NCBI RefSeq assembly: GCF_030142075.1
Contig: NZ_CP126241.1
Span: 62,001 to 126,000, forward strand
Source of the DNA: Arthrobacter sp. zg-Y20
GTDB taxonomy: Bacteria > Actinomycetota > Actinomycetes > Actinomycetales > Micrococcaceae
Direction of reading: 5' to 3'
Length of the DNA: 64,000 nucleotides
The position numbers and the translations under genes are program-made. Each line of letters begins with the position of its first letter. The first letter of the stretch is position 1. The notes beneath the pieces were generated by a model. That model did no database searches, had not been told where the DNA came from, and saw only the letters and a list, made by a program, of their open reading frames with translations. Below, piece by piece: positions 220 to 8,505 of this stretch.

Positions 220-624
220 CTAGCCGGTGATTGCCAGGGCGTCGATTTCCACGAGCATGACTTCGTGCGGAAGGTCAACGAAAACGGTGGTCCGCCCCGG
301 AAGGGCGCCGCTGGGTACGTTTTCCTTGATGAACTCTCCGTAGGCTTCGTTCATGGCCGCGAAATCCCCGCGGGTGGTGAGATAGACACGGAACATCAGC
401 ACGTCCTCCACGGAGGAGCCGCCGGCTTCAAGGATTGCCTTGACGTTTTCGAGGGTCCGGCGGGTCTGTGCCCGGACATCCCCTTCGGCAATGTACTTGT
501 TGGTGGCCGGGTCCATGGGGCCCTGTCCGGACACCTGCAGGAAGCCCCCCTTCCGAACTCCCTGGGAGAAAACGTGCGCGGGCGCGGGGGCGTTCTCGGT
601 CAGTACAACGGTCTTTTCACTCAT
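220..624 (-). CDS. ridA: RidA-family enamine/imine deaminase
   Basis: This 134-residue protein has the usual length and sequence of the YjgF/YER057c/UK114 (RidA) family: FSQGVRKGGFLQVSGQGPMD near residue 20, QTRRTLENVKAILEAGG in the middle and the C-terminal VEIDALA strand. RidA proteins hydrolyse the reactive enamine/imine intermediates released by PLP dehydratases to the 2-oxo acid and ammonia. It is the last gene of the leftward operon: its ATG overlaps the IclR stop by 8 bases. The divergent operon encodes a PLP D-amino-acid dehydratase, whose product chemistry is what RidA would clear. The partner substrate is inferred. Confidence 0.9.
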   Translation of the reverse strand: MSEKTVVLTENAPAPAHVFSQGVRKGGFLQVSGQGPMDPATNKYIAEGDVRAQTRRTLENVKAILEAGGSSVEDVLMFRVYLTTRGDFAAMNEAYGEFIKENVPSGALPGRTTVFVDLPHEVMLVEIDALAITG

Positions 625-1381
625 GGTTGTCCTTTCGGGGGTTGATCCAGCCGAGGTCCGACGAAATGGCCTCGGTGCAGGCTTGGAGCTGCGGCAGCAT
701 ACCGAGAAGTCCCTCGTAGCTGAGCATGACTATGGGTACGGAGAAGGACGCGGCGGCAACGGCGTTTCCCCGGCCGTCCCGGATGGGGGCGGCAATGCAG
801 TGGACAAAGGATTCGTGTTCGGCGTTGTCATGCGCCCAGCCCTGCGCCTTGACCTGTTCCAGTTCGGCCAGCAATGCTTCCGGGCCGGCCAGGGTGTTCG
901 GCGTGAACCTGACGTAGTCCAGTCCGGCCGCGATGTGTTCCTGCTCGGCACGCGGCAGGTCCGCCAGCAGGACCTTCGCCACCGCCGCCGAGTGCAGTGC
1001 CGCCGTCAGGCCGATCCGTGAATACATCCGGACCGGATGGTGGGACTCGAACTTGTCGATGTAGATGACGTCGTTGCCCTCGAAGGCGGCCAGGTGGACC
1101 GTGTGTCCGGTGCGGGCGTTCAGGTCGGCCAGGTGCGGACGTGCGACGGCGCGGATGTCGCGTTGCTCCAGTGCCAGCGAGGACAGTTCAAAGAACTTGG
1201 GTCCCAGCCGGAAACGCTGCTCCTTGTCGCGGACCACGAAACGCCGCTCTTCCATTGCATGCAGCAGGCGCATGATGGTGGTTTTGTGCACGGTGGCCCG
1301 GGATGCCAGTTCGTCCAGGGTTGCAGGCTGCTCGGCAAGCTCGCCCAGCAGGTCCATGGCCCGCATAAGGCTTTGGCTCAC
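617..1381 (-). CDS. IclR-family transcriptional regulator (KdgR-like role inferred)
   Basis: A 254-residue protein with an N-terminal winged helix (ATLDELASRATVHKTTIMRLL, about residues 20-40) and an IclR effector domain containing GHTVHLAAFEGNDVIYIDK and RIGLTAALHSAAVAKVLLA. The ATG overlaps the TGA of the upstream kinase (ATGA), so the two are translationally coupled. The IclR family includes KdgR regulators that sense 2-keto-3-deoxygluconate. Because a KDG kinase and a KDPG aldolase lie in the same locus, KDG or a close analogue is a reasonable guess for the ligand. The likely operators are the half-sites at 2569-2598. Confidence 0.9.
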   Translation of the reverse strand: MSQSLMRAMDLLGELAEQPATLDELASRATVHKTTIMRLLHAMEERRFVVRDKEQRFRLGPKFFELSSLALEQRDIRAVARPHLADLNARTGHTVHLAAFEGNDVIYIDKFESHHPVRMYSRIGLTAALHSAAVAKVLLADLPRAEQEHIAAGLDYVRFTPNTLAGPEALLAELEQVKAQGWAHDNAEHESFVHCIAAPIRDGRGNAVAAASFSVPIVMLSYEGLLGMLPQLQACTEAISSDLGWINPRKDNHE

Positions 1382-2433
1382 GGGTCCGCCTTTCCAGGGA
1401 TTGGGGAAATAGTCGAACTTGCAAGGTTATCAACGGCGGGAGAACGGATTTCGCCCGCAGCCACGGAGGTGTTTCCCCAGTCCGCGTCGCTGCACCCGAC
1501 GAGTGCCGTCAGCAGCGGCGCCGGCGGGAGCGGGCCGCGGTCGCCGGGAACGGTCAGCGTGCAGGCGGCGCTGATGTGCCCGCGCCGCAGGCTTGCCTTT
1601 AAATCGAGCCCCAGCAGCATCCCGCTCAGGTATCCGGCAGCGAAGGAATCACCTGCCCCCACGGGTTCAAGCACCTCGACCGACAAGGCTGGAACTTCTT
1701 CACGGGCACCGCTGCGCTCCAAGGCGACGGCGGTGAAGGCCTCGTTCTTGATCACCAGTACCTCCGGGTCCGGGAGGAGTGCACGAAGCTCCTGCTCGTT
1801 GCCCGTCCCGAAGGCGTGTTCGGCTTCGTCACTGCCGACCAGGACCACATCGGCAAGGTTTGCGAGCTCCTGGAGGACGCCGTGGTCCTTGCCGTGCCAA
1901 AGGGCGGGCCGCCAGTTGACGTCAAAGCTGATGATGCGGCCGTTCCTCGGCAGGGAAAGCACTGCACGGCACAATTCCAGGCAGTCGGGGGAGAGGGCGG
2001 GCGTAATGCCGCTGAGGTGGATCAGGCGGGCATCAGCCAGCAGGCCGGCGACCACTTTGTCCGAGAGCAGGTCCGGTCCCATGGCAGAGGCTGCGGAGTC
2101 CTGCCGGTAATACAGCATTGAGCTGCCGGACCCGCTCTGCCCTTCCTGCGCGGGAACTTTGACGTAGAGCCCGGTGTGGCGCAGCGGGTCGCGCTGGACG
2201 CCTGTTGTCCCCACGGAGTGGGCGCGGAGGTCCGCCAGGATCCGGGAGCCGAAGCCGTCCTCGCCCACCCGGCCTATCCAGTGGGTCTCGATGCCCATGG
2301 CGGCCAGGCCCATGGCGACGTTGGATTCGGCCCCGCCCAGCCCCACCTGCAGGACATCTGCCTGCTCGAGTGTCTGTTCGCTTGCAGGAGTCAGCATGGC
2401 CATTGACTCGCCTAGGCATACGGCTGAAAGCAC
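1378..2433 (-). CDS. kdgK: PfkB-family sugar kinase, probable 2-keto-3-deoxygluconate kinase
   Basis: A PfkB/ribokinase fold begins at VLSAVCLGESMAMLTP and continues with the substrate glycine run GLGGAESNVAMGLAAMG. It ends with the catalytic motif EPVGAGDSFAAGYLSGML (catalytic Asp near residue 262 of 351). A longer ATG frame exists (2556), but its first 41 residues are not kinase-like. The GTG at 2433 is preceded by AGGA at good spacing and is preferred. The family phosphorylates KDG to KDPG, the substrate of the aldolase encoded in the divergent operon. First gene of the leftward operon, coupled to iclR by ATGA. Substrate is inferred from context: PfkB sequences alone do not settle it. Confidence 0.82.
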   Translation of the reverse strand: MLSAVCLGESMAMLTPASEQTLEQADVLQVGLGGAESNVAMGLAAMGIETHWIGRVGEDGFGSRILADLRAHSVGTTGVQRDPLRHTGLYVKVPAQEGQSGSGSSMLYYRQDSAASAMGPDLLSDKVVAGLLADARLIHLSGITPALSPDCLELCRAVLSLPRNGRIISFDVNWRPALWHGKDHGVLQELANLADVVLVGSDEAEHAFGTGNEQELRALLPDPEVLVIKNEAFTAVALERSGAREEVPALSVEVLEPVGAGDSFAAGYLSGMLLGLDLKASLRRGHISAACTLTVPGDRGPLPPAPLLTALVGCSDADWGNTSVAAGEIRSPAVDNLASSTISPIPGKADP

Positions 2434-2568
2434 TTGTTTCCTGTTCTCACCCTGGGCTGCGTCGTCCTGCGATCGCCGGGCACTGAAGCCCGGGAGAAAA
2501 TGCGGCGGACACTGCTGAGCGTTCCTTGACTCACGATTCGCCACCATGTTAGACATATCACCATCAGA

Positions 2569-2598
2569 TTTGCAACGAACGTTGCAAAATACGCAACG
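2569..2598. promoter_or_regulatory. Operator-like alternating half-sites between divergent operons
   Basis: TTTGCAACG (2569-2577), AA, CGTTGCAAA (2580-2588) form a perfect 9-bp-arm inverted repeat. A third half-site GCAACG (2593-2598) makes a second inverted repeat with CGTTGC (2580-2585) across 7 bases. The array lies in the 208-bp gap between the preferred starts of the kinase (2433) and the dehydratase (2642). The TTGCAA at 2582-2587 could itself be the -35 of the rightward promoter, with a weak TATCT near 2606. Binding by the neighbouring IclR protein is inferred. Confidence 0.65.
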
Positions 2599-2641
2599 GG
2601 GTGGCTATCTGCTCCGCAGTCCTTTGAAGGGATCCGCAGCG

Positions 2642-3958
2642 GTGTCAACCCCCATCCAGGCGCCGGCCATTAACGCCGACGCGGTATCAGACCTGCAGTC
2701 CACCGTCCTGGGCTGGCGGCACAAGGCAGCCCCCTCAAGCTCGCAGGGCCGCACGGTAAAGGACTTCCTGGCGTCTGCTCCGCACCTTTCGGACTTCCAC
2801 ACCCCGCTGCTCACCCTGGACGGGACAGCCGTGCAGTACAACATGCGCCGGCTTGCCCAGTGGTGCAGGGACCACAATGTGCTGCTGGCGCCGCACGGGA
2901 AAACCACCATGGCACCGCAGCTGTGGGCCCGGCAGTTGGAGGAGGGTGCGTGGGGAATCACCCTGGCGAACCTGGCACAGCTGCGCGTGGCACGTGCCTT
3001 TGGCGTCCACCGGCTGCAGCTGGCCAACACCCTGGCCGACCCCGAAGCGATCAGCTGGGCCGCGGATGAAGCGGCCGCCGGGCGGCCCATCCTGTCCTGG
3101 GTGGACTCCGTGGACAGTGTCCGAAACCTCGAACTGATCCTGTCCAAGCGGCACGACGGTGCCGTATTGGATGTGCTGGTGGAGCTGGGCGGCCATGGCG
3201 GGCGGACCGGAGCCCGGAGTGTCGAGGCGGCGCTGGAGGTTGCCAGAGCGGCGGGTTCGTCGCCCGTCCTGAACCTGGTGGGAATTTCCGGGTACGAAGG
3301 CGCCTTGGCGCATACCGCCGACGCCGCGGGACTGGCAGCGGTGCGCGGTTACCTGCAGCAGATGGCGCACCTGCACGCTGCCGTGCTGGAGGAGGGGTTG
3401 TACACCCCGGGTGCGGGAGTAATCCTCACCGCCGGCGGCAGCGCGTATTTTGACGATGTGGTCCAGGTCCTGTCTCCGCTCTGCACCCCGGGCGATGCCA
3501 ACGGACCCGCCGTGCAGCTCATGATCCGCAGCGGAGCCTACGTCATCCACGATGACGGGTTTTACCGGGAAATCTCACCGCTTTCCCGCGACGGCGGAAC
3601 GCCGCTTGCGGCCGGTATGCACGGCTGGGCGCGGGTAGTGTCCCGGCCGGAACCCGGGCTGGCCATTCTCGATGCCGGCAAACGTGATCTCCCGGTGGAC
3701 GAAGGGTTGCCGGAGCCGCAGCTGGTTGGCCCGGCGCTGGGCGGTCCGATGCGGCCCCTGAAGGGCCGGATCACGGCGGTCAATGACCAGCACTGCTTCC
3801 TGGCCGTCGATGCGGGGGAATCGATACGGGTGGGGGACGTGGTCCGGCTGGGGCTGTCCCACCCCTGCACGGCCCTGGACAAATGGACACTCATTCCGGT
3901 GCTGGCCGACACGGACCGCGACGGCGCGGTTGTGGACCTCATCCAGACATTCTTTTAG
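2642..3958 (+). CDS. DSD1-type PLP D-amino-acid dehydratase/deaminase (candidate D-glucosaminate dehydratase)
   Basis: A 438-residue protein of the alanine-racemase-fold type III D-serine dehydratase / D-threonine aldolase family. Lys87 in APHGKTTM is the PLP Schiff-base lysine. The C-terminal SHPCTALDKW carries the H-x-C zinc pair (His407, Cys409) typical of DSD1-type dehydratases. The family removes ammonia from D-amino acids with a beta-hydroxyl. I place the start at GTG 2642, preceded by GAAGGG. The in-frame ATG at 2546 would run through the operator and adds non-conserved residues. Next to KDG kinase, KDPG aldolase and RidA, the likely substrate is D-glucosaminate (2-amino-2-deoxy-D-gluconate), giving KDG. 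D-serine or D-threonine remain alternatives. Confidence 0.8.
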   Translation: MSTPIQAPAINADAVSDLQSTVLGWRHKAAPSSSQGRTVKDFLASAPHLSDFHTPLLTLDGTAVQYNMRRLAQWCRDHNVLLAPHGKTTMAPQLWARQLEEGAWGITLANLAQLRVARAFGVHRLQLANTLADPEAISWAADEAAAGRPILSWVDSVDSVRNLELILSKRHDGAVLDVLVELGGHGGRTGARSVEAALEVARAAGSSPVLNLVGISGYEGALAHTADAAGLAAVRGYLQQMAHLHAAVLEEGLYTPGAGVILTAGGSAYFDDVVQVLSPLCTPGDANGPAVQLMIRSGAYVIHDDGFYREISPLSRDGGTPLAAGMHGWARVVSRPEPGLAILDAGKRDLPVDEGLPEPQLVGPALGGPMRPLKGRITAVNDQHCFLAVDAGESIRVGDVVRLGLSHPCTALDKWTLIPVLADTDRDGAVVDLIQTFF

Positions 3959-3968
3959 GGGGCCGGAC

Positions 3969-5618
3969 ATGAGCATCCTCATCAGCAACGCAACCCTGGT
4001 GGACGGCACGGGCAATGAGCGCCGTGCCGCCGACGTCGTGGTGGAGGGAACCGCAATTGCCGCGGTCACAGCTGCCGGCGAAGCGGACCCTTCAGCCCCC
4101 GGCACCGAGCGGGTTATTGACGCTTCCGGGCTGGTCCTGGCTCCGGGGTTCATCGACATGCACGCCCATTCCGACCTCCAGCTGCTCGCGGAGCCGGGCC
4201 ACTACGCCAAGCTCAGCCAAGGGGTAACCACTGAGCTGCTGGGACAGGACGGACTGTCCTACGCTCCCGTGGACACTCCAACCCTGGAGGGCATCCGCCA
4301 GAAGATTGCAGGGTGGAACGACGACCCGCAGGGATTTGCCTACGACTGGCGCAGTGTCGGTGAGTATCTGGACCGTCTTGACGCTGCCGGTCCATGCGGC
4401 CGCATAGCCACGAACGCCGCGTACCTGGTCCCGCAGGGCACGGTCCGGGCAATGGTGATGGGTTTTGCGGAGGGCACACCAACCGCTGCACAGATGGAGC
4501 AGATGGAGGACGCCGTACGCACCGGGCTGGCGGAGGGGGCCGTGGGAATGTCCTCGGGCCTGACATACACGCCCGGAATGTACGCCGACACCGAGGAACT
4601 GGCGGCCCTGTGCCGGGTGGTAGCTGAGCACGGCGGCTTTTATGCTCCGCATCACCGGTCCTACGGGAAAAATGCACTCGCTGCCTACGCCGAGATGATC
4701 GGCCTGTGCCGGGACAGCGGGTGCGCGCTCCACCTCTCCCACGCCACCATGAACTTTGCCGAAAACAAGGGGCGTGCCGGTGAACTCCTGGCATTGATCG
4801 ACGAGGCGCTTGACGACGGCGTCGACATCACGTTGGACACGTATCCCTACCTGCCGGGCGCTACGACGCTTTCGGCGATCCTTCCCAGTTGGGCGTCATC
4901 GGGCGGGACGGCGCAAACCCTGCAGCGGCTGGCGGACCCGGCGAGCCTGGAACGCATCCGCAAGGATGTGGAAGTCAACGGGTCCGACGGATGCCACGGA
5001 GTGGTGGCGGAATGGGACACGCTGGAAATCAGCGGCGTCCGCAACCCGGCTCTGGGCGGTTTTGTGGGGCGGACCATCGCCGCCATCGCTGCAGAGAGCG
5101 ATACAGCACCTTTCGACGTTTTCGTGCACATCCTGCGCGCGGACAGCTTGGGTACCGGCATCCTCCAGCATGTGGGACACGAGGAGAACGTCCGGACCAT
5201 CATGACCCACCGCTCCCACACGGGCGGCAGCGACGGCATCCTGGTGGGGGACAAGCCCCATCCCCGGTCATGGGGCACTTTCCCCCGTTACCTTTCCCGT
5301 TATTGCAGGGAATTGGGGCTATTGACGCTCGAAGAGACCGTCCACCACCTCACCGGCCGTCCTGCTGCCCGGTTGAAGCTGGACCGCCGGGGGCTTGTCC
5401 GCCCCGGCTGGGCCGCCGACCTGGTGTTATTTGACCCCCGGACCATTGCGGACCGGGCCACTTTCGACCAGCCGCGCCAGCCGGCTGCCGGCATCCCCTA
5501 TGTATTCGTCAACGGCACCGCGGCGATTGACGGCGGAAAGCCGACCGGTGCCCGTGCCGGCCGTGCCCTCCGCCGCCATCCCGACGGCAAAACCCGGATT
5601 GGAAAAACAAGCATATGA
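3969..5618 (+). CDS. D-aminoacylase-like amidohydrolase (N-acyl-D-amino-acid deacylase family)
   Basis: A 549-residue amidohydrolase. The N-terminal small beta domain is followed by the metal motif DMHAHSD (His65, His67), APHHRSYGKNAL, the HLSHA loop, HRSHTGGSDGILVGDKPH and the C-terminal GLVRPGWAADLVLFDP. The order and length match N-acyl-D-amino-acid deacylases. The place where classical D-aminoacylases have the metal-bridging Cys (an NCG turn) reads LGQDGLSYAP, with Asp94, so the enzyme belongs to a divergent subgroup. AGGGGG precedes the ATG, 10 bases after the dehydratase stop. Removing an acyl group from a D-configured 2-amino acid, such as N-acetyl-D-glucosaminate, would supply the dehydratase. 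Exact substrate unknown. Confidence 0.85.
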   Translation: MSILISNATLVDGTGNERRAADVVVEGTAIAAVTAAGEADPSAPGTERVIDASGLVLAPGFIDMHAHSDLQLLAEPGHYAKLSQGVTTELLGQDGLSYAPVDTPTLEGIRQKIAGWNDDPQGFAYDWRSVGEYLDRLDAAGPCGRIATNAAYLVPQGTVRAMVMGFAEGTPTAAQMEQMEDAVRTGLAEGAVGMSSGLTYTPGMYADTEELAALCRVVAEHGGFYAPHHRSYGKNALAAYAEMIGLCRDSGCALHLSHATMNFAENKGRAGELLALIDEALDDGVDITLDTYPYLPGATTLSAILPSWASSGGTAQTLQRLADPASLERIRKDVEVNGSDGCHGVVAEWDTLEISGVRNPALGGFVGRTIAAIAAESDTAPFDVFVHILRADSLGTGILQHVGHEENVRTIMTHRSHTGGSDGILVGDKPHPRSWGTFPRYLSRYCRELGLLTLEETVHHLTGRPAARLKLDRRGLVRPGWAADLVLFDPRTIADRATFDQPRQPAAGIPYVFVNGTAAIDGGKPTGARAGRALRRHPDGKTRIGKTSI

Positions 5619-6250
5619 CCCCGGAAGAATTCACCCGCCAGCTCCGCGAGGACGCCACCTTGGCCGTGGTCAGGGCTCCCGGCATCCCCGACCCGGCGGC
5701 GCTGTGCACCGCGCTGGTCGCGGGAGGCATCCGCACCGTGGAACTCACCTACACCATCCCGGACGCGCTCAAGCACCTGCGCACGGCGGTGGACGCCGCC
5801 CTCGACCATGGTGCCCTGGTGGGCATGGGCACGGTGCTGACGGCAGACCAGGCCCGTGCTGCCATTGACGCCGGGGCGGGTTTCCTGGTGACTCCCGGAC
5901 TGCGGCCGGAGGTTGCCGCCGTCGCAGCCGAGGCGGGCATTCCCTTCAGCCTTGGCGCCATGACGCCCACGGAAGTGGCGCAGGCGGTGGACCTGGGCGC
6001 TACCGCCGTCAAGATCTTCCCCGCCCGGCAGCTGGGGCCCGCGTACCTGAAGGATCTCCAGGGCCCGTATCCGGGTATTGCGCTGCTTCCCTCCGGCGGC
6101 ATCGACGCCGGCAATGCTTCCGATTACCTCCGTGCCGGGGCCATTGCCGTGTGCTGCGGGACCAGTGTCGTCCCACCGGCTGCAGTGGCTGCCGGTGACT
6201 GGACGGACATCCAGGTCCGTGCAGCCGGTTTCACCGGCACACTCCGCTAG
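5615..6250 (+). CDS. eda: KDPG/KHG aldolase
   Basis: A 211-residue class I aldolase of the Eda family. Glu43 in TVELTYTIPDAL and the Schiff-base Lys133 in ATAVKIFPARQLGPAYL are in place, as is the phosphate-binding LLPSGGI loop. It cleaves 2-keto-3-deoxy-6-phosphogluconate to pyruvate and glyceraldehyde 3-phosphate. ATG overlaps the deacylase stop (ATGA), so the two are translationally coupled. With the divergent kinase it completes a KDG-to-central-metabolism module. Confidence 0.93.
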   Translation: MTPEEFTRQLREDATLAVVRAPGIPDPAALCTALVAGGIRTVELTYTIPDALKHLRTAVDAALDHGALVGMGTVLTADQARAAIDAGAGFLVTPGLRPEVAAVAAEAGIPFSLGAMTPTEVAQAVDLGATAVKIFPARQLGPAYLKDLQGPYPGIALLPSGGIDAGNASDYLRAGAIAVCCGTSVVPPAAVAAGDWTDIQVRAAGFTGTLR

Positions 6251-6296
6251 ACCTTTCCTTTCCTTCCTGTCTCGAACACCGAGTAGAGAGAACCTC

Positions 6297-7691
6297 ATGC
6301 AAGATGTAATTAGCTGGCTGCGCGAAGATACTGCCGGCCTCCTCCTGCTGGCGGCTGCCGGCATTGCGCTGCTCCTCTTCCTGATTATCAGGATCAAGCT
6401 GGAACCCTTCATTGCACTGGTGGCCACCGGCGTCCTCGTGGCTCTGGCCGGCGGTGTGCCGATCAATGATCTGGTGGGCACAGCGACCAAGAGCAGCGAC
6501 GCCCTCATTGAAAAGGGCTTCGCCGGCATCCTGGGCCACATTGCCCTGATCATTGGCCTGGGCACGGTTCTGGGTGCCATCCTCGAGCGGTCCGGCGGCG
6601 CAGAAGTGCTGCTGGGGCGGCTGGTGAAAATCTTCGGGGAGAAGGGCACCCCGCTGGCCATGGGCATTACCGGGTTTGTCCTGGGCATCCCGGTGTTCTT
6701 CGACATCGGTATCTTTGTCCTGGCTCCGCTGGTGTACGTTGCGGCGGTCCGCGGCGGCAAGTCACTGCTGCTCTACGCCCTGCCCCTGTTGGCGGGCCTC
6801 TCGGTCACCCACGCCTTCCTGCCGCCGCACCCCGGCCCGGTGGCCGCCGCCGGGCTGCTGCACGTGGAACTGGGCTGGATCATCATCATGGGTCTCGCCT
6901 GCGGCATTCCCGCATGGTTCGCCTCAGGCATCCTGTGGGGTACCTGGATCGGCAAGCGCGTGCACATCAACGTGCCCGAAGACCGCATTGTCCCCGAAAC
7001 CGCTGAAGACCGCGGATTCGGGGCTCCGTCCCTGGCGGTGGTGCTGGCCTGCATCGGACTGCCCATGCTGCTCATCCTGGGTGGAACCTTCGGCAACATC
7101 TTCCTGCCCGAAAGCCCGTTCCGCTCCGCCCTGCAGTTCTTCGGGAACCCGGCAATCGCCCTGACCGTGGCTGTGCTCATTGCCATGTGGCTCCTGGGTA
7201 CGAACCGCGGGATGACCTCCTCCGAACTGGCGGAGCTCACCTCCTCCTCGCTTCGCCCGGTGGGCATGATCCTGCTGGTAGTCGGCGCCGGGGCGTTCTT
7301 CGGAGCCGTGCTCACGGCAACCGGTGTTGGCACCGCAGTGGCCGAATCGCTGGCCACGGCGGGACTTCCGCTGCTGGTTTCGGCCTTTGTGATCAGCGCC
7401 GGGATGCGTATTGCCCAGGGCTCCGCGACCGTTGCCATTGTCACCACCGGCGGCATCCTCGCGCCGGGCCTGCTGGAAGGCGGGTACTCCCAGCCGCAGC
7501 TTGCCCTGATTACCATGGCGATTTCTTCCGGGTCCATCATTGCCAGCCATGTGAACGACGGCGGTTTCTGGATTATCGCGAAGTACTTCAATATGTCGGT
7601 CAAGGACACCCTGAAGACCTGGACGGTGCTGGAAACGGTCCTGTCCCTCGTGGGCTTCGGAATGGCCGCCCTGCTGTACCAGTTCGTCTAG
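6297..7691 (+). CDS. GntP-family permease (sugar-acid transporter)
   Basis: A 464-residue integral membrane protein with about 12 hydrophobic segments. Family landmarks are the conserved early loop GFAGILGHIALIIGLGTVLGAILE, FDIGIFVLAPLVY, AFLPPHPGPVAAAGLL and the C-terminal SGSIIASHVNDGGFWII. GntP proteins import gluconate and related sugar acids with protons. ATG lies 46 bases after eda, with a purine-rich AGAGAGAA leader. In this operon a 2-amino- or 2-acetamido-gluconate is a plausible cargo. Specificity is inferred from neighbours only. Confidence 0.9.
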   Translation: MQDVISWLREDTAGLLLLAAAGIALLLFLIIRIKLEPFIALVATGVLVALAGGVPINDLVGTATKSSDALIEKGFAGILGHIALIIGLGTVLGAILERSGGAEVLLGRLVKIFGEKGTPLAMGITGFVLGIPVFFDIGIFVLAPLVYVAAVRGGKSLLLYALPLLAGLSVTHAFLPPHPGPVAAAGLLHVELGWIIIMGLACGIPAWFASGILWGTWIGKRVHINVPEDRIVPETAEDRGFGAPSLAVVLACIGLPMLLILGGTFGNIFLPESPFRSALQFFGNPAIALTVAVLIAMWLLGTNRGMTSSELAELTSSSLRPVGMILLVVGAGAFFGAVLTATGVGTAVAESLATAGLPLLVSAFVISAGMRIAQGSATVAIVTTGGILAPGLLEGGYSQPQLALITMAISSGSIIASHVNDGGFWIIAKYFNMSVKDTLKTWTVLETVLSLVGFGMAALLYQFV

Positions 7692-7725: not shown

Positions 7726-8505
7726 ATGCCTGCCATGAAGTATTCGTACGGTCCCGGGCCGGAACAGTATGCCGAACTAACCCTCCCGGCCTCAGGCCCG
7801 TCCGGCCGGGAGGGTGCCCCGCGCAACGGGACCGTCGTGATCATCCACGGTGGCTACTGGCGCTCGAAATACACCGCTGAGCTTGGCTGGCCGCTGGCCC
7901 GGGACCTCGCCGCCCGCGGCTTTGCCTGCTGGAACATGGAGTACCGGCGGGCCGGGAACGGCGGCGGCTGGCCGCAAACGCTCGAAGATGTCCTGGCCGG
8001 CATCAACGCCCTGTCCCCGGCGGCAGAGGCCGAGGGCGCGGACCTGTCCCGGGTCACCCTGCTGGGCCACTCGGCCGGCGGCCACCTGGCCGTGCTGGCC
8101 GCAAAAGCCGCCAAGGCCGAACCGTCCGCGGTAACCGTTACCGGCGTCGTGAGCCAGTCAGGGGTGCTGGACCTGGCCGCGGCGCACCGGCTGGGCCTCA
8201 GCGACGGCGCCGTGGAAAACTTCCTGGGCTGCCCACCGGGCCTGGATCCGCAACGCTATGTGGACGCGGACCCTATGCAGGCGCTGCCGCTGCCCGTACC
8301 GGCCTGGGTGCTCCACGGAGCGGAAGACACCACGGTTCCGGCAGGATTCTCCACCTCCTGGGCCCAGGCGGCCGCCGCAGCCGGCACCCGTGTGCAGCTG
8401 CGCACCATCCCGGGGGACCACTTCGCCATGATCACCCCCGGCACCGCCGCCTGGGCCGCCGTCGTCGAGGCGCTTCACGAAGCAGCAGGAAACCGGGTTC
8501 CTTAG
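7726..8505 (+). CDS. Alpha/beta hydrolase, kynurenine-formamidase-like
   Basis: A 259-residue alpha/beta hydrolase. HGGYWRSKY near residue 43 matches the oxyanion HGGxW motif of arylformamidases. LLGHSAGGHLAVLA carries the nucleophile Ser in GHSAG. VLHGAEDTTVP holds the likely acid, and GDHFAM the catalytic His. ATG is 34 bases after the permease stop, with GAAGAGG just upstream, so it could be the last gene of the rightward operon. It may hydrolyse an amide, ester or lactone belonging to the pathway. There is no tryptophan catabolism gene nearby to support a kynurenine role. Confidence 0.8.
   Translation: MPAMKYSYGPGPEQYAELTLPASGPSGREGAPRNGTVVIIHGGYWRSKYTAELGWPLARDLAARGFACWNMEYRRAGNGGGWPQTLEDVLAGINALSPAAEAEGADLSRVTLLGHSAGGHLAVLAAKAAKAEPSAVTVTGVVSQSGVLDLAAAHRLGLSDGAVENFLGCPPGLDPQRYVDADPMQALPLPVPAWVLHGAEDTTVPAGFSTSWAQAAAAAGTRVQLRTIPGDHFAMITPGTAAWAAVVEALHEAAGNRVP

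Follow-up and report, generated by a model that had tools for sequence, protein, structure and literature searches.

The window analysed here is a stretch of 64,000 nucleotides from Arthrobacter sp. zg-Y20 (contig NZ_CP126241.1, positions 62,001 to 126,000). Near its start lies a cluster of seven genes, for which the original prediction proposed a route for N-acetyl-D-glucosaminate (GlcNAc1A) through 2-keto-3-deoxygluconate (KDG) and 2-keto-3-deoxy-6-phosphogluconate (KDPG), encoded in two divergent and internally coupled operons. All seven genes are present as then placed, in two divergent arms, with families assigned by Pfam and NCBIfam profile matches (Table 1). Three gene pairs overlap (RidA/IclR by 8 bp, IclR/kinase by 4 bp, deacylase/aldolase by 4 bp), which suggests coupling within the arms, in agreement with the earlier description; the gene of the pyridoxal 5'-phosphate (PLP) enzyme is separated from that of the deacylase by 10 bp, and the aldolase gene from GntP by 46 bp. 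The longest open reading frames (ORFs) of the kinase, which reaches 2556, and of the PLP enzyme overlap across the common promoter region. The likely starts are the GTG codons at 2433, with AGGA five bases upstream, and at 2642, preceded by GAAGGGA, and these corrected starts leave a divergent control region of 208 bp.

Table 1. Features of the cluster in window coordinates, with the evidence for each predicted assignment
Feature	Position	Strand	Evidence
RidA (enamine/imine deaminase family), 134 aa	220..624	-	PF01042 E 1.7e-29
IclR-family regulator, 254 aa, GTG start	617..1381	-	PF01614 E 6.6e-48, PF09339 (HTH_IclR) E 4.8e-9
PfkB sugar kinase, probable KDG kinase, 351 aa from GTG 2433	1378..2433	-	PF00294 E 1e-44
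Putative plus-strand operon promoter, TTGACT, 18 nt, TAGACA	2526..2555	+	Intergenic alignment
Predicted three-box operator TTGCAACGAACGTTGCAAAATACGCAAC	2570..2597	.	Intergenic alignment and conservation
DSD1-type (fold type III) PLP dehydratase/deaminase, 438 aa from GTG 2642	2642..3958	+	PF14031 E 1.6e-18
D-aminoacylase-like amidohydrolase (Amidohydro_3), probable N-acyl-D-aminosugar acid deacylase, 549 aa	3969..5618	+	PF07969 E 8.9e-37
KDPG/KHG aldolase, 211 aa	5615..6250	+	TIGR01182 179.3 bits, cut-off 156.05
GntP-family permease, 464 aa	6297..7691	+	PF02447 E 1.4e-122; TIGR00791 367.1 bits, cut-off 292.75

Conservation of the gene set

One genome per species was scanned, and the best 80 of 518 confirmed deacylase relatives were analysed as loci, with neighbours sought up to 8 kb on either side of the deacylase gene; some loci end at contig ends, and some GntP and IclR matches are weak or lie away from the cluster. 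The deacylase gene is accompanied by that of the PLP enzyme in all 80 loci, by RidA in 74, IclR in 72, the kinase in 68, GntP in 50 and a window-type KDPG aldolase in 30, and all seven genes occur together in 18. The gene set, which recurs together in dozens of genomes, is thus beyond chance. A deacylase match (E up to 1e-30) was found in 27 of 119 related genomes, 13 of which, zg-Y20 included, reach at least 48% identity, and in the sample of the class, 55 of 296 genomes carry a relative at E up to 1e-130. The seven genes stand together in several Micrococcaceae, and a complete annotated set is present in Tsukamurella tyrosinosolvens; more distant loci hold the deacylase and PLP genes without aldolase or GntP. 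The search of related genomes suggested with the original prediction recovers the set, but the novelty that it had seen for Micrococcaceae does not stand: a system restricted to this family is ruled out by the spread through Actinomycetes, which includes most of the Streptomyces examined.

A probable three-box operator and the genes beside it in Streptomyces

Alignment of the divergent region with that of 17 relatives shows a conserved block, in the window TTGCAAC-N3-CGTTGCAA, after which comes a third box, GCAAY. Its palindromic core (GCAAY, 3-6 bases, RTTGC), sought within 450 bp upstream of the aligned PLP start, is present in 74 of the 80 loci, against 0.4 expected from a two-base-block shuffle repeated 200 times. 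The core is found in 70 of the 72 loci with an IclR gene and in four of the eight without, two of these four ending at contig ends, and from this co-occurrence we infer that the IclR protein binds the predicted operator. A palindrome with an external direct half-site, in alternating direction, is described as an IclR-family layout for 32 orthologous groups (PMC8222616); the operator reported here has the same three-box layout with GCAAY/RTTGC boxes, and the passages searched in that study do not mention the present regulon. The promoter-like TTGACT/TAGACA pair is kept in most Micrococcaceae rows of the intergenic alignment, and a consensus promoter scan did not report it.

In the zg-Y20 genome, the 27-base pattern TTGCAAC-N3-CGTTGCAA-NNTNN-GCAA has a single site, even when three mismatches are allowed. 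The exact pattern GCAAY-N4-RTTGC-N7-GCAAY occurs at the cluster in all 19 genomes searched, and six of them (five Streptomyces and one Arthrobacter) hold a second site. Four of the second Streptomyces sites precede a lactonase gene, whose product belongs to PF10282 by Pfam in three cases and is 90% identical to one of these in the fourth, and the fifth precedes a KDPG aldolase gene (PF01081, 236.9 bits). The exact three-box site was then found in 141 of 150 Streptomyces genomes, a reversed control pattern giving 4 matches. Forty sites were typed, namely, 39 from the first 16 listed Streptomyces genomes with at least two sites and one of genome G544, chosen because it probably lay outside the cluster. 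The cluster accounts for 16 of them, 13 stand by an unlinked KDPG aldolase gene, 27-96 bp from its aligned start, eight stand by a relative of the PF10282 lactonase, and three are unexplained, one of them at a contig end. All listed sites were typed in the 16 genomes, and 12 of these genomes have an aldolase site and eight a lactonase site. Since 25 of 28 Streptomyces loci have no window-type aldolase in the stretch, the unlinked, operator-linked aldolase would fill this gap.

Among the 80 loci, 11 have a lactonase gene close to the cluster itself (ten are from Amycolatopsis, Saccharopolyspora or Actinokineospora), and so does the sister locus L030. Twin-arginine-like starts suggest that the enzyme is exported; they were seen in six of the eight typed Streptomyces lactonases (the starts of the other two were not displayed), in the four of loci L159-L162 and in nine of ten cluster-linked lactonases, and not in L095, L114 and L030.

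Some further observations concern the surroundings of these sites. In four Streptomyces (L159 8013-9071, L160 6843-7892, L161 6919-7974 and L162 6921-7994), the lactonase gene is directly preceded, in the same orientation, by a gene for a protein of about 350 residues, with no Pfam match in the two scanned; as the operator separates the stop of this gene from the start of the lactonase gene, the former is probably not a target. An operator-like site in L207 (3001-3026) stands between the gene of an IclR paralogue (32%) and an ORF judged by eye to be aldehyde dehydrogenase-like; it is possibly the site of another regulator, and similar site sequences are present in a few other Streptomyces. In one Streptomyces (L216 1678-5007), the lactonase operator faces ORFs resembling, by eye, hydroxypyruvate isomerase and tartronate semialdehyde reductase.

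Proposed pathway and competing substrates

Tied to one operator, the sugar lactonase, the GntP importer, the deacylase, the PLP dehydratase, RidA, the kinase and the KDPG aldolase form a closed route if they act on a 2-acylamino-2-deoxy-D-aldonate whose C2 has the D configuration. The gene set and its conservation, together with the operator sequence and the genes beside its other copies, lead us to infer the following series of steps. In the lineages having it, the beta-propeller lactonase, probably exported, would open the lactone, GntP would import the acid and the amidohydrolase would take off the acyl group. The DSD1-type PLP enzyme would remove water and ammonia from D-glucosaminate to give KDG, RidA clearing the enamine or imine, after which the PfkB kinase would form KDPG, and the aldolase would split it into pyruvate and glyceraldehyde 3-phosphate. 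From the three-box operator, which lies directly after the probable promoter, the IclR regulator would keep both arms repressed as long as no inducer is present; the inducer is perhaps the acid or KDG. Among acids that arise from a lactone and would undergo deacylation, deamination, phosphorylation and cleavage as KDPG, GlcNAc1A fits best. We consider it probable that the cluster is a regulated unit for the breakdown of a 2-(acylamino)-2-deoxy-D-aldonic acid, the likeliest being this C1-oxidised chitin end. The order of steps, already put forward in the original prediction, gains support from the operator common to the Streptomyces aldolase and lactonase genes and from the retention of the kinase in 68 of the 80 loci. 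Chitin-active lytic polysaccharide monooxygenases (LPMOs) are described as producing GlcNAc1A chain ends, with lactone and acid in equilibrium (PMC12017989, PMC9820598).

With regard to the individual enzymes, the kinase belongs to the PfkB family by Pfam and falls under the cut-off of every NCBIfam model matched (best KDG-kinase score 153.2 bits, cut-off 440), but its nearest solved relative by sequence is the KDG kinase 1v19 (E 3e-45). The PLP enzyme is of the DSD1 type, with a PF14031 domain and what we take to be the PLP Lys and the HxC metal motif; it is 35% identical to an OngC-type protein from Pseudoalteromonas, and the APHGKTTM and SHPC motifs are common to both. D-glucosaminate dehydratase (EC 4.3.1.9), from Pseudomonas and Agrobacterium, is a PLP enzyme that converts D-glucosaminate into KDG and ammonia. 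DGL, of the phosphate-first D-glucosaminate route, belongs to a different PLP family. In that route, carbon also ends as KDPG, but it is the phosphorylated acid that is deaminated (PMC9529869); for chitin-using haloarchaea, a comparable route in which phosphorylation comes first has been predicted, with genes for IclR and RutC (PMC12343721).

Several observations weigh against the assignment to GlcNAc1A, among them the active site of the deacylase. This protein matches the D-aminoacylase AfDam (1m7j, E 1.9e-81), and its residues were compared, at positions defined in the PpOngB complex, over 87 cluster rows, 7 sister rows and 9 paralogue rows (translations below 330 residues were left out, with 107 deacylase and 95 PLP rows kept). 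Both barrel His (HxH), both metal His, the catalytic Asp, Tyr194, Tyr285 and Arg379 are conserved in the clade; the sequence family, the HxH pair, the two metal His, the catalytic Asp and the carboxylate-site Tyr and Arg are likewise those of the amidohydrolase subtype V D-aminoacylases AfDam and BbDam (3gip). Unlike these, however, the window deacylase lacks the metal Cys and the carboxylate Lys, which are common to OngB, AfDam, the Klebsiella protein discussed below and 9g5m: the Cys is replaced by Asp (GQDG for GNCG) in 87/87 cluster rows and 7/7 sister rows, and Lys254 by Thr in the window and in 84/87. Among the OngB residues given metal-site or GlcNAc1A-contact roles in PMC12017989 (the contacts being Glu226, Lys254, Ser290, Ser292 and Gln298), Glu226 is changed to Tyr, Ser290 to Gly and Ser292 to Thr, each in all 87 rows. 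At the Ser291 position the window has Ala, and members of the clade have Ala, Ser or Cys. Arg occupies the Gln298 position in 81/87 rows, within a loop of doubtful alignment; at the Leu116 and Gln298 loops the alignment is unsure, AfDam reading Arg at Gln298 where PMC12017989 gives Leu. In favour of the assignment, the pocket Phe and Met of AfDam, both Ala in OngB, are Thr (84/87) and Asn (87/87), and this more polar pocket would suit substrate hydroxyls without proving them.

Other points also weigh against it. Of the 80 loci, 12 have no kinase nearby and 50 no window-type aldolase, 9 of the 150 Streptomyces genomes are without the exact site, and at the second Arthrobacter site no relevant gene was recognised. 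None of the typed operator sites was attributed to a chitinase or LPMO gene, the genes sought being those of the cluster, the lactonase, the aldolase and one neighbour. Kinase and aldolase leave the gluco and galacto configurations undistinguished. Lastly, the zg-Y20 genome has no AA10 LPMO (PF03067), no GH18 match (PF00704) and no PF10282 lactonase. Without LPMO and GH18 the strain would scavenge acids, and scavenging of those made by others is the likelier setting for zg-Y20.

The same chemistry could serve another sugar acid, most plausibly the C4 epimer N-acetyl-D-galactosaminate, which is 2R like D-glucosaminate and would pass through 2-keto-3-deoxygalactonate (KDGal) and its 6-phosphate (KDPGal). 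The top-scoring models of the kinase are those of bifunctional KDG/KDGal kinases, below their cut-offs, and galacto versions of such systems may exist, as an OngB-type cluster on a Klebsiella plasmid has genes annotated as 2-dehydro-3-deoxygalactonokinase and 2-dehydro-3-deoxy-6-phosphogalactonate aldolase. We nevertheless regard this substrate as unlikely: the window aldolase passes the Eda cut-off (Table 1) and lies far below that of the KDPGal aldolase model (105.1 bits, cut-off 207), and sources of galactosaminate in soil appear less obvious. The Klebsiella pneumoniae plasmid in question (NZ_OP378649.1, L051 6565-13829) encodes OngB/OngC-type proteins and an SSS transporter; its deacylase resembles the solved 9g5m at its beginning and matches it at the compared positions, and a galacto-specific version is possible.

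Ordinary use of N-acyl-D-amino acids, for instance of N-acyl-D-serine or D-threonine, with the sugar genes as bystanders, seems to us quite unlikely, even though these protein families belong to D-amino acid metabolism and OngC itself is reported to act on D-serine and D-threonine (PMC9537276). Plasmids of Pantoea and Klebsiella variicola do combine DSD-type enzymes, IclR and RidA with amino-acid ABC transporters, but three such stretches are without the kinase and without the KDPG aldolase, and amino acid use would leave unexplained the kinase in 68 of the 80 loci, the operator-linked KDPG aldolase and sugar lactonase, and GntP. Very improbable, finally, is free D-glucosaminate or another lactone-derived acid as the true substrate, with a deacylase for a side substrate, since the deacylase and PLP genes occur together in 80/80 loci (found through the deacylase), although glucosaminate would require no more than the PLP enzyme, kinase and aldolase, and the deacylase active site is unusual.

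Relation to the Ong pathway and to chitin

For a catabolic unit acting on GlcNAc1A, the closest known system is the ong cluster of Pseudoalteromonas prydzensis (OngB, OngC, OngD, KdgK, OngR, OngIT and OngA). This precedent in marine Gammaproteobacteria, mentioned in the original prediction, is real: in Pseudoalteromonas, the reactions of OngB, OngC and KdgK have been shown, and OngD (RidA) is needed for growth (PMC9537276). As in ong, genes for a deacylase, a DSD-like fold type III PLP deaminase, RidA and a sugar kinase, here predicted to be KDG-specific, are encoded together, and the proposed reactions would be the same through KDG-6-P (KDPG); ong versions in Vibrio, Klebsiella and Serratia are described as carrying the aldolase gene too (PMC9537276). 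Unlike ong, the window has GntP instead of an SSS importer and IclR instead of a MurR/RpiR repressor, has neither a GH20 gene nor a TonB receptor gene among the seven, and belongs to an actinobacterial system to which a lactonase is tied in some lineages. Identity to the P. shioyasakiensis proteins is 30% for deacylase/OngB, 35% for PLP enzyme/OngC, 32% over 87 residues for RidA and 26% over 177 for the kinase.

Trees were built on chosen rows (31 and 25). In that of the deacylases, OngB groups with AfDam, apart from the actinobacterial clade; in that of the PLP enzymes, the two ong rows and two proteobacterial rows form one group (99/99), separate from the actinobacterial rows, which a split with support 88/89 unites. 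An OngB identity of the window deacylase is ruled out by residues and tree: it has neither the Cys/His/His metal site with the GlcNAc1A contacts of an OngB-type deacetylase nor the metal Cys of a subtype V D-aminoacylase. The system may thus work like the Ong pathway, but with a deacylase that is not of the OngB enzyme family, and because of this deacylase, the different transporter and regulator, and the lack of AA10 LPMO and GH18, we would not give it the plain label of Ong pathway.

Two loci bear on the wider deacylase family. A plasmid of Natrinema zhouii (L043 7995-17587) encodes an archaeal GQDG amidohydrolase beside sulfatase, PIG-L deacetylase and GH20 genes, and the Asp-for-Cys group is therefore wider than the proposed pathway. 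In L033 (9235-12367), a deacylase paralogue with replaced metal and catalytic residues is followed by a KDPG aldolase 58% identical to that of the window, and then by an FAA hydrolase.

With regard to earlier surveys, the complete Ong pathway was reported only in Gammaproteobacteria and one Achromobacter (PMC9537276), and an Aeromonas chitin study that sought OngB and OngC describes distant or no matches only (PMC11653859). Among the titles and abstract openings listed by searches of an open-access library, none describes an actinobacterial GlcNAc1A pathway or the present regulon.

Linkage to chitin genes was a check suggested with the original prediction. PF03067 is present in 42 of the 55 cluster carriers against 93 of the 296 genomes of the class sample (Fisher p 2e-14), a co-occurrence which comes mostly from one family: 29/29 carriers in the Streptomyces family have it, and 13/26 elsewhere. 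We reject it as proof, driven as it is by related Streptomyces-family genomes. GH18 does not track the cluster, with matches in two of six Micrococcaceae carriers of the 119-genome set (G047 weak, G052 strong), and a link to chitin breakdown by zg-Y20 itself is unsupported.

Streptomyces have been called major soil chitin decomposers, and an LPMO of Streptomyces coelicolor releases lactones and aldonic acids from chitin (PMC9820598); the gene set is a concrete candidate for the actinobacterial handling of such LPMO-oxidised ends. The Entner-Doudoroff pathway of S. coelicolor is described as not complete (PMC7494193). The regulon offers a reason for the presence of a KDPG aldolase in this species. 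That its SCO2298 may be the operator-linked aldolase is a guess from the neighbouring genes. The arguments seem to us evenly balanced on a broader proposal, that actinobacteria, including most Streptomyces sampled, have their own dedicated end-route for the oxidised chitin monomer, assembled separately from Ong around an Asp-ligand amidohydrolase, with one IclR regulon joining an exported aldonolactonase and an otherwise orphan KDPG aldolase. If true, this separate end-route would be a missing intracellular end of LPMO chemistry in soil, and a specific operator and specific enzymes are offered for testing.

Two neighbours of the cluster may be added. An alpha/beta hydrolase gene (7726-8505) sits after GntP, none being seen near the cluster in the relatives compared for neighbourhood. 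On the other side, an IclR paralogue (36%; L040 9403-10032) is encoded on the plus strand beside RidA, its gene ending at about base 32 of the window.

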